Assembly: GCF_005233845.1 (NCBI RefSeq)
Contig: NZ_SZQL01000001.1
Location: 248,001-312,000 of the forward strand
Direction: 5' to 3'
Length of the DNA: 64,000 nt
From: Ilyomonas limi
Lineage (GTDB): Bacteria > Bacteroidota > Bacteroidia > Chitinophagales > Chitinophagaceae
Shown here piece by piece: positions 299 to 62,388 of this stretch. The notes beneath the pieces are model-generated. The model saw only the letters and a program-made list of their open reading frames with translations, had not been told where the DNA came from and searched no databases. The translations under genes and the position numbers were made by a program. How positions within the stretch are numbered: the first letter of the stretch is position 1; each line of letters begins with the position of its first letter.

Positions 299-703
299 AA
301 GTTGGAGTGGCACGAGGCACTTCTTTTTTCGTATCCCGCTTATTTTTGTGGTTAGGAGGTATTCAATAAATTTTTGAATGCAACTGCTGATGTAAATGAT
401 ATGAGCATATAACTCATTGAATTCTTCCTGTAAAAGATACTTTCTGTCTAACACACGGTAAAGCTGTGAGCGCACTTCGCCCGCAGAACCTTTTGCATAG
501 CCTAAGAAAACAATAAATCCAGCTCTGCTGCCCCTTTCAAATCCTTCGGCAATGTTATCCATAATAGAGCCGCTTGCCCTGTCTGTCTGGTCTATTAGCC
601 CGAAATTATTTTTAAACTTTCCACTATCAATAACATTTCCAATCACGTTATAAAAGCTTCTTGCCAGCTTCCATGCTTCAATCTCTTCAAAACATTTAAT
701 CAT
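296..703 (-). CDS. Four-helix bundle protein (TIGR02436 / 23S rRNA IVP-like)
   Basis: About 135 aa from the ATG at 703 (MIKCFEEIEAWKLAR); an ORF start 18 bases further upstream lies inside the flanking repeat and is probably not used. Hallmarks are 'EAWKLARSFY' at the N-terminus, 'DQTDRASGSIMDNIAEGFERGS', 'FLGYAKGSAGEVRSQL' and a final helix before a basic tail. The family is all-helical, forms oligomers, and was first seen in intervening sequences of 23S rRNA genes; its biochemical role is not established. The gene sits between two amidohydrolase genes and is bracketed by inverted repeats, which suggests it was inserted as a unit. Confidence 0.88.
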   Translation of the reverse strand: MIKCFEEIEAWKLARSFYNVIGNVIDSGKFKNNFGLIDQTDRASGSIMDNIAEGFERGSRAGFIVFLGYAKGSAGEVRSQLYRVLDRKYLLQEEFNELYAHIIYISSCIQKFIEYLLTTKISGIRKKKCLVPLQL

Positions 704-59976: not shown

Positions 59977-60975
<999 letters not shown>

Positions 60976-60976
60976 G

Positions 60977-61109
60977 GAGGGGAGAAGCAGCCCCCAGCCC
61001 TAAAGGGAGCTTAGATACAGCCAAACAAGTTAAACTTTAACTACATGAAATCATTCTTTATACCAAATCACTTTCAATACTCCCCTTCCGGGGCTGGGGC
61101 TTTGGGGGC
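60977..61109. repeat. Dispersed CCCC-rich repeats before the DUF559 gene
   Basis: One copy near 60986-61012 reads GCCCCCAGCCCTAAAGGGAG; the second near 61079-61110 is inverted and reads CTCCCCTTCCGGGGCTGG then GGCTTTGGGGGCA. The DUF559 ATG directly follows the second copy. A third copy in the same orientation as the second is at 61494-61520. Confidence 0.8.
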
Positions 61110-61469
61110 ATGCACTATGGTGCTCATCCTCTGATATTTAAGAAAGCGGAAGATTTGAGAAATAAAATGACACATGCAGAGGAGTTGTTGTGGAATTATT
61201 TAAAAACAAATGAATGGGGTTATAAGTTTAGAAGACAGCATCCCATCTTTATGTATGTGGCAGATTTTTATTGTCATCAGCTAAAGCTTATCATAGAAGT
61301 TGATGGCAGCATACATGAATCAGAAGATGTAAAACGTGATGATGCAATCAGAGAAAATCACTTAAAAAACTTAGGCTTAAAAAGCTTTCGTTTTAAGAAT
61401 GAAAAAGTAATGAATAATTTAGAAAGTGTACTCAATCAAATAAAACAAATCATTCAACATGAACAATAA
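61110..61469 (+). CDS. DUF559 endonuclease-like protein
   Basis: 119 aa. 'MTHAEELLWNYLKTNEWGYKFRRQ' (in part), 'YVADFYCHQLKLIIEVDGS' and 'LGLKSFRFKNEKVMNNL' fit the vsr-like PD-(D/E)xK fold of DUF559; the Asp and Glu of 'VADFYC...LIIEVDG' would bind metal. The first codon lies in the repeat copy at 61079-61110. The gene interrupts the moxR-DUF58 order, is flanked by repeats and ends 11 bases inside DUF58, so it looks inserted. Confidence 0.9.
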   Translation: MHYGAHPLIFKKAEDLRNKMTHAEELLWNYLKTNEWGYKFRRQHPIFMYVADFYCHQLKLIIEVDGSIHESEDVKRDDAIRENHLKNLGLKSFRFKNEKVMNNLESVLNQIKQIIQHEQ

Positions 61470-62388
61470 CTCCCCTTCCACCTCAGCAGCTACAAGCTCC
61501 CCTTCAGGGGCGGGGGGGCATGATGGTATCACTTCGCTTCTCAAGAAAGTGCGCGAGCTGGAAATCATCAGCAAGCGGCTCACCAATCATTTATTTACGG
61601 GCGAATATCATACGGCTTTTAAAGGCAAGGGCATGTCTTTTAAAGAAGTGCGCGAGTACCAGCCGGGCGACGACATCCGCTTTATAGAGTGGAATGTATC
61701 GGCGCGCATGGGACATACCTACAGTAAATTATTTGAAGAAGAGCGGGAACTGAGCGTGTACTTATTGATAGATGTAAGTGCCAGCAGTTTGTTTGGTACG
61801 TTCAGGCAAACAAAAAGGGATTTGATTACGGAAATAGGCGCGGTGCTGGCTTTTTCAGCCATCAGCAATAACGATAAGGCAGGACTGATTTTTTTTAGCG
61901 ATAAAGTAGAAAAATTTATTCCGGCAAAAGGAGGTCGCGACCATGTACTGTATATGGTGCGCGAGTTGCTTACGTTTCAGCCACATTCTGCTAGTACTGA
62001 TATTGTAAAAGCCATCCGTTTTTTAAATAATATTACGAGGCACAAAAGTATTGTATTTATCATGAGCGATTTTGCCGATGCGGGTTATAAAGATGTATTA
62101 CGCGTAACGGCACGGCGGCACGATGTAGTAGGCATACAGGTGTATGACAAAAGAGATAGAGAACTGCCGCGCATAGGCTTGATACAGGTGCGCGATGCCG
62201 AAACCGGTAAAACCGTATGGCTCGATACCAACGATACGTACACAAGATTTCAATACAACAAGCAGTTTCACCAGATAATAGATGATGCAAAACTCACCTT
62301 TCGGAATGCCGGTGCCGACTTGCTGCAAATTGCTACCGGCGAAGATTATGTAAAAGTGTTACAACAATTCTTTATCAGGAGAGCATGA
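61459..62388 (+). CDS. DUF58 protein with a repeat-derived N-terminus
   Basis: 309 aa. The core starts at 'ITSLLKKVRELEIISKRL' and holds 'YQPGDDIRFIEWNVSARMGH', a VWA-like 'VYLLIDVSASSLFG' with MIDAS residues, and 'IVFIMSDFAD'. The first 22 residues (MNNNSPSTSAATSSPSGAGG) are encoded by the dispersed repeat at 61471-61520 and are not conserved in my view. The start overlaps the DUF559 stop (ATGAACAATAA). DUF58 proteins work with MoxR in the Bat locus. Confidence 0.92.
   Translation: MNNNSPSTSAATSSPSGAGGHDGITSLLKKVRELEIISKRLTNHLFTGEYHTAFKGKGMSFKEVREYQPGDDIRFIEWNVSARMGHTYSKLFEEERELSVYLLIDVSASSLFGTFRQTKRDLITEIGAVLAFSAISNNDKAGLIFFSDKVEKFIPAKGGRDHVLYMVRELLTFQPHSASTDIVKAIRFLNNITRHKSIVFIMSDFADAGYKDVLRVTARRHDVVGIQVYDKRDRELPRIGLIQVRDAETGKTVWLDTNDTYTRFQYNKQFHQIIDDAKLTFRNAGADLLQIATGEDYVKVLQQFFIRRA

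Follow-up and report, generated by a model that had tools for sequence, protein, structure and literature searches.

Inteins with homing endonucleases place a nuclease in frame within essential genes, and the Rickettsia palindromic elements (RPEs) are palindromic repeats read in frame within housekeeping proteins; the DUF559 genes described here resemble both. To our knowledge, RPEs carry no nuclease gene, unlike DUF559 units. YcjD is presumably a DUF559 protein. One paper counts YcjD-like proteins among the Vsr-related members of PD-(D/E)XK (PMC1189080), and a Thermosynechococcus study, where it discusses inteins, assigns a DUF559 gene to the EDxHD homing family (PMC9403480); a nuclease link of DUF559 is therefore already known. 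The EDxHD homing endonuclease I-Bth0305I appears in a review among the group I intron homing endonucleases, as a long multi-domain form with a very long DNA target (PMC3943268). REP-RAYT systems are described in two papers (PMC3116915, PMC3733652), and in the latter, CGTC repeats are apparently without a dedicated transposase. The repeats at DUF559 genes are similar to REPINs and their RAYTs in being short palindromes with an outward tail, often in inverted pairs and with tens of copies in some genomes, and in having one nuclease family as the likely partner. Unlike in the REPIN/RAYT case, a PD-(D/E)XK/Vsr-type nuclease, not an HUH transposase, is the probable partner, the units lie in frame within genes, and there is no overall link with RAYT.

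The window analyzed here, a 64,000-nucleotide stretch of the Ilyomonas limi genome, contains a very small nuclease gene that lies between short mirror-like repeats and has moved into the beginning of a functional gene, DUF58. On the forward strand, moxR (an AAA_3 ATPase gene, 59977 to 60975; PF07726, E = 7.5e-67) lies upstream, and the DUF559 gene, of 119 aa, occupies 61110 to 61469 (profile match to PF04480, E = 1.1e-31, 109.4 bits against a gathering score of 20.6). The sequence-only reading had seen three CCCC-rich repeat copies bracketing this gene, and we recovered all three. The left, REP-like copy is inverted (60986 to 61012, reverse strand) and 73% complementary to the right copy over 22 nt. 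The inner, direct copy (61080 to 61109, forward strand) runs into the ATG of DUF559 at 61110, as had been claimed, and the right copy (61494 to 61520, forward strand), 90% identical to the inner one over 20 nt, ends the mobile unit and is indeed translated in frame, as SSPSGAGG of the new DUF58 N terminus. Repeat comparison added a weak fourth copy (65%) at 61470 to 61489 on the same strand. DUF58 as now read extends from 61459 to 62388, also on the forward strand (PF01882, E = 1e-74), and its present start, ATGAACAATAA, is supplied by the element at 61459 and overlaps the DUF559 stop codon.

Between the left and inner repeats, the sequence ATGAAATCATTCTTT (MKSFF; 61045 to 61059, forward strand) looks like a remnant of the original DUF58 start, judging by the N termini of DUF58 in relatives. 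One relative (L234) starts DUF58 with MKLFRRNKENQQINHAPPVGDGITSLLKKVREL, and the window DUF58 resumes at HDGITSLLKKVREL past the right repeat. This remnant and the resumption beyond the repeat suggest that the element displaced the old start and supplies the new one at 61459. The earlier view that the gene lies between moxR and DUF58, overlaps DUF58, and provides its start thus stands, with the site refined to the inside of the first DUF58 codons rather than beside the gene.

The I. limi genome has three DUF559 genes: that of the window, one on contig C4 of the assembly (G000:C4; locus L003), and one in leuS. The 456-bp block from 61062 to 61517 (forward strand), which we take as the mobile unit, has 455 positions identical to the C4 copy and a single 1-nt gap. 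The neighbors of this copy are a homoserine dehydrogenase gene (thrA-like) on one side and a GHMP kinase gene (by Pfam; thrB by eye) on the other, and the right end is the end of the REP in both loci. In L003, thrB begins MNNNSPSTSAATSSPSGAGG-IRVFSPATVANLVCGFD, the same new N terminus as that of the window DUF58. To the left of the element, the host's own first codons seem to survive in both loci (MKLQFT for thrB and MKSFF for DUF58), which suggests that the element landed within the first codons of both genes. The old start is 66 nt from DUF559 in L003, in frame, and 65 nt in the window, where one G is missing; since the inner repeat is one G shorter than that of L003, the window DUF559 is out of frame with the old DUF58 start. 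Each locus also has an inverted repeat further upstream, preceding that start (a 23-nt stretch of the window's left repeat is 96% identical to that of L003), as if a repeat had occupied both sites before the element arrived. On its left side, the 456-bp block extends ~18 nt past the inner repeat, and no target-site duplication was clear by eye. Among the loci read, the window and L003 are the only recent within-genome pair.

DUF58 orthologs occur in 121 of the 147 genomes of the family, and we read the loci of 29 relatives. In 27 of these, moxR adjoins DUF58; a profile search found DUF559 at none of the 29, including all 27 with adjacent moxR. The empty sites that had been predicted for the moxR-DUF58 operons of relatives thus exist, and the position of DUF559 varies instead of being fixed. 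With the near-identical second copy that has the same right end in thrA-thrB, they bear out an insertion between repeats, and movement of the DUF559 unit is well supported. In two relatives (L237 and L253), the same slot holds a four-helix-bundle gene, so the moxR-DUF58 junction may be a hot spot; by coordinates, such a gene adjoins DUF58 also in genomes G021, G027, G051, and G125. In L257, a solo repeat is read in frame in the DUF58 N terminus.

The 5.88-Mb genome has 17 copies of a strict form of the repeat pattern, CTCCCCTTYNGGGGNNGGGG, and none of the reversed control. Four of these copies are the flanks of the window and L003 DUF559 genes, and several others form REPIN-like intergenic inverted pairs whose members are a few tens of nucleotides apart. 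As single strands, the short window repeats folded no better than dinucleotide shuffles (z = 0.17, 0.77, and −0.63), and the leuS repeat folded better than its shuffles (z = −2.41).

We gathered DUF559 loci with their flanks and compared the 170 nt to the left of each domain with the 170 nt to the right, using as the threshold the 99th percentile of 577 windows slid over the same loci (6 of the 577 exceed it by construction). Repeats scored over the threshold at 55 of 84 DUF559 domains (inverted at 45, direct at 22). At the same fixed threshold, a second set of 86 loci (80 records of a genome scan plus 6 plasmids) gave 50 of 82 testable domains, compared with 12 of 796 controls, or 49 of 79 after removal of three loci that are the same DNA in both sets (L216, L218, and L221 of the scan; L072, L080, and L073). 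Repeats at the flanks, on which the sequence-only reading had staked its case, are therefore found at over half of the DUF559 domains tested, and over a third of the domains (29 of 84 and 32 of 82) fell below the threshold. Outside the Bacteroidota, taking phyla as named in the records and counting L170 as outside, 22 of 30 domains were positive, compared with 4 of 264 controls; the positives come from Cyanobacteriota, Chloroflexota, Alphaproteobacteria, Methylomonas, Desulfuromonadales, Deinococcus, Kiritimatiellae, Patescibacteria, and Kryptoniota. By eye, the inverted ends follow a grammar in which an outward tail, CCTCACCCC or CCCC, is followed after a few nucleotides by a palindrome, such as CCCCT..AGGGG, CCCTCTCC..GGAGAGGG, or CCCCTCTCC..GGAGAGGGG. 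Two patterns built on this grammar, one of them slightly loosened, matched within 170 nt of 34 of the 84 domains and in 6 of 422 slid windows. At L133, on a 3.7-kb contig, the inverted repeat that flanks DUF559 is unusually long (score 172, ~100 nt).

A point absent from the sequence-only reading is that many DUF559 relatives lie in frame within essential genes. The third DUF559 gene of I. limi is in frame inside the genome's single leuS match, in an open frame of 1,117 aa, and only ~100 nt of the insert lies outside the DUF559 domain. DUF559 occurs in 76 of the 147 family genomes, and 61 of the 123 matches listed at 87 bits or more, the best in these genomes, lie in open frames of at least 300 aa, a count that includes fusions ahead of a downstream gene. 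Among the best matches listed for two other families, the corresponding numbers were 0 of 150 for RAYT (Y1_Tnp) and 1 of 150 for the four-helix bundle (PF05635), which points to in-frame residence as specific to DUF559 and rules it out as a general trait of small repeat-bounded genes. Across the class, DUF559 was matched in 153 of 396 genomes (E up to 1e-20); the 150 best matches listed, which lean to top scorers, include 87 in frames of at least 300 aa.

We read 85 domains in context, from 80 fetched regions plus the three I. limi loci, and called a copy in-gene when at least 100 aa of open frame lay on both sides, a definition under which out-of-frame insertions could appear only as standalone. 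On this basis, 47 copies are in-gene and 30 are standalone; another 7 precede a downstream gene to which they are fused (L077 among them being cut by the contig end), and the remaining copy has a long frame on its upstream side only; the 47 of 85 leans to high scorers because the 80 regions come from the upper part of an E-value-sorted list. The 10 hosts typed by Pfam include leucyl- and methionyl-tRNA synthetases (leuS, metG), methionine synthase (metH), chorismate synthase (aroC), CinA (cinA), adenine deaminase, a fused methylmalonyl-CoA-type mutase, IspG (GcpE; ispG), peptidase M23, and HsdR (hsdR). Four in-gene cases lie outside the Bacteroidota (L199, L209, L211, and L217). In four Pedobacter loci (L157, L159, L165, and L179), DUF559 appeared by eye to be fused in frame, via a GGG-rich repeat-like peptide, ahead of a HisF-like protein. 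The HsdR frame of L057 (1606 to 5745) carries, besides its in-frame DUF559, an in-frame GIY-YIG nuclease domain at residues 265 to 331, which suggests that other homing-type nucleases may share the in-gene habit.

The leuS gene was found in 142 of the 147 genomes, with a single match in 140, and its frame reached at least 1,070 aa in 19; in each of these 19, DUF559 was also matched on that contig, in a frame of identical length. Two copies lie in one leuS at L061 and L064, and the doubly occupied L061 gene still scores 909.6 bits against a leuS cutoff of 548.4. Both insertion sites are, unlike those of inteins, variable-length loops. At site 2, the 30 loci that best matched one query, which are not a random sample, comprise 22 with a short 25-aa form, 2 with DUF559, and 6 with a lengthened form without DUF559; at least 3 of these 6 (L261, L274, and L275) have a solo GC-rich palindrome-like repeat in their DNA. 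Filled and empty alleles thus both exist, as with homing endonucleases, and cutting and copying of the empty allele is putative. The presence of nuclease relatives in frame in essential genes looks like a mobile element hiding in host proteins without splicing.

A tree built from 120 columns of 84 domains leaves 17 of its 81 forks open. Within it, 45 domains form a supported clade (98/96) that has no standalone member and consists entirely of in-gene copies, one of them cut by a contig end. Host-site labels change 22 times on the tree, where the least possible is 11 and shuffled labels give 50 (none of 200 shuffles was as low), and leuS site 1 accounts for at least 4 label changes on well-supported branches. 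This in-gene clade changes host often. DUF559 and an orthologous host diverge to a similar degree, which suggests that residence is mostly vertical and moves are rare or occasional. The window copy groups with lodgers of thrB and argB (97/85).

An alignment of 17 diverse DUF559 proteins proved too variable to serve for scanning a genome collection. The catalytic residues D54, E65, D67, and H71 are intact in 47 of 47 in-gene and 30 of 30 standalone copies. These residues (among them D52, E63, and H69 in window numbering) are probably equivalent to the EDxHD motif. The in-gene copies appear to be under purifying selection, with dN of 0.09 to 0.27 and dS of at least 0.86 or saturated in 11 pairs. 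An AlphaFold2 (AF2) model of the window protein (pLDDT 86.7) has as its best Foldseek matches in the PDB 3hrl, an endonuclease-like protein, and then 3r3p, the catalytic domain of I-Bth0305I (E = 6.5e-4, TM 0.64/0.76, 21% identity). The window gene is therefore predicted to encode the EDxHD/Vsr-like nuclease fold of that homing endonuclease. Unlike I-Bth0305I, DUF559 consists here of the 119-aa domain only and has REP-like ends, and no intron or intein was found.

The sequence-only reading had grouped DUF559 with a four-helix-bundle gene and a RAYT unit of the window as small genes bounded by short repeats. For the four-helix family, this held in part: 23 of 24 testable PF05635 genes (L288 to L317; 6 of the 30 loci were too short for the repeat test) are bounded by inverted arrays of ~7-nt units (TAAGTT.TAAGT, AGGCAA, TTGACAGATGACAG), and the window copy (374 to 688, reverse strand) has, by eye, TTTAAAGTTTAAGG-type repeats on both sides. 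A single common system did not hold, as these repeats are of a different type; the four-helix genes with their own repeats are a separate, mobile-looking system. The RAYT part fared worse, since the CCCC repeat was absent from the five Y1_Tnp loci of I. limi within the 1.5 kb read, and other palindromes were seen by eye at two or more of them. One, L140 (37176 to 37367, reverse strand), is a partial, RAYT-like Y1_Tnp match with the palindromes GTAGTC..GACTAC and GCAAATCTCC.. on both sides. The different repeat types suggest several systems, not one.

We think it reasonably probable that DUF559 is a nuclease gene of the homing type, spreading in REP-like repeats and able to live unspliced in host proteins. 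It would then belong to a small mobile element that has REP-like palindromes at its ends. REP copies, as their sequences suggest, would spread or arise in genomes, some of them within coding loops, and the EDxHD/Vsr-type DUF559 endonuclease would recognize and cut either a REP copy or the DUF559-free allele of a REP-marked site. Repair of the break from a locus with the arrangement REP-DUF559-REP would copy the gene into the new site, and REPs already present in coding loops or gene starts would act as landing pads. Because such repeats can be read as linkers (SPSPKERG, PSPLERAGG, or SPSGAGG-like), the element could be translated within a host protein and splicing would be unneeded. Frame-keeping insertions in loops, again as the sequences suggest, would survive, the fusion presumably being tolerated, and host translation would carry the nuclease. 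In the window, landing inside the first DUF58 codons would have created the new DUF58 start. The idea that DUF559 is the agent of its own insertion, raised from the sequence at the outset, is made likelier, short of proof, by the homing-endonuclease fold, the intact catalytic residues, and the co-occurrence with repeats described below.

To relate the repeats to their possible movers, we counted two grammar-based patterns in the 147 genomes, with overlapping matches counted repeatedly; the reversed-pattern control gave 1 match for the first pattern and 0 for the second. DUF559-positive genomes held 1,561 REP matches and DUF559-negative genomes 150. Five or more matches were present in 42 of 76 positive and 7 of 71 negative genomes (odds ratio [OR], 11.3; P = 2.8e-9; statistics that ignore kinship), and in 14 same-genus pairs differing in DUF559, REP was higher in the DUF559-positive member in 6, lower in 2, and tied in 6. 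That the repeats are instead moved by RAYT or an unknown transposase, with DUF559 riding between two of them as passive cargo, we consider unlikely. RAYT presence did not predict the repeats overall (OR, 1.6; P = 0.22; kinship again ignored) or within DUF559-positive genomes (OR, 0.93), although it was weakly associated with them in DUF559-negative genomes (6 of 34 versus 1 of 37; OR, 7.7; P = 0.049), and the existence of REP-RAYT systems, the Y1_Tnp genes of I. limi, and the seven DUF559-negative genomes with at least five matches would all fit such a mover. We rejected RAYT as the main mover of the CCCC repeat on this overall result and on the five I. limi Y1_Tnp loci, which lack that repeat in the stretch read, notwithstanding the one contrary subtest. 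The passive cargo reading can also draw on the terminal inverted repeats at four-helix genes, the presence of which was likewise associated with REP (OR, 8.5, ignoring kinship); against it, small repeat-bounded genes of the other families hardly ever lie in frame within genes (0 of 150 and 1 of 150 of the best matches listed). Least credible of all is an ordinary juxtaposition, by chance, of small intergenic genes and GC-rich terminator repeats: many REPs are intergenic and paired, but the slid and reversed-pattern controls and the near-identical second copy speak against it.

Patchy presence in 76 of 147 genomes, more than one insertion site per host, and two copies in one leuS (L061 and L064) also make it rather improbable that DUF559 is a Vsr-like repair or defense nuclease kept for its benefit, with insertions as domain fusions and REPs as fragile spots. 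The hosts have no common theme (tRNA synthetases, aroC, ispG, metH, and adenine deaminase), although some are restriction genes (hsdR by Pfam, others by eye). The purifying selection on in-gene copies would agree with a useful domain, as would a Caulobacter DUF559 protein, VsrA, that is functionally tied to the methyltransferase ScmA (PMC12907096). Removal of DUF559 from the host product, as an intein, an intron, or by translational bypass, is very improbable, even though a homing-type nuclease in frame in essential genes, with terminal inverted repeats able to pair, would suit it. We rejected the intein reading since searches of 10 host proteins (E up to 1e-8), and of 5 of them at a looser limit (E up to 0.1), turned up no intein family and in particular no Hint splicing domain, a difference from inteins. 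A known structured RNA or group I/II intron was likewise rejected, as no Rfam family matched at its gathering score in positions 60500 to 62000 of the window or in 10 in-gene loci, and the ~100 nt beyond DUF559 in the leuS insert leaves no room for a group I or II intron.

We found no report of REP bounding or unspliced in-frame residence of DUF559 in the titles and abstract starts of the open-licence PMC papers listed. We propose, tentatively, that these units make up a selfish element of a new class. Homing nuclease genes bounded by REPs would spread by cutting REP landing pads, and would be kept in essential proteins as domains that are translated but not spliced out (two within a single leucyl-tRNA synthetase); several bacterial phyla have repeat-bounded counterparts. 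A widespread nuclease family of "unknown function," DUF559, thereby gains a likely role, and a class of CCCC-rich palindromic repeats gains a likely partner enzyme, so that the spread of REP-like repeats without RAYT becomes directly testable. For annotation, there is a warning that many leuS, metH, aroC, and hsdR genes hold a second gene. Single-copy essential enzymes can accommodate entire nuclease domains while showing no trace of a splicing domain.
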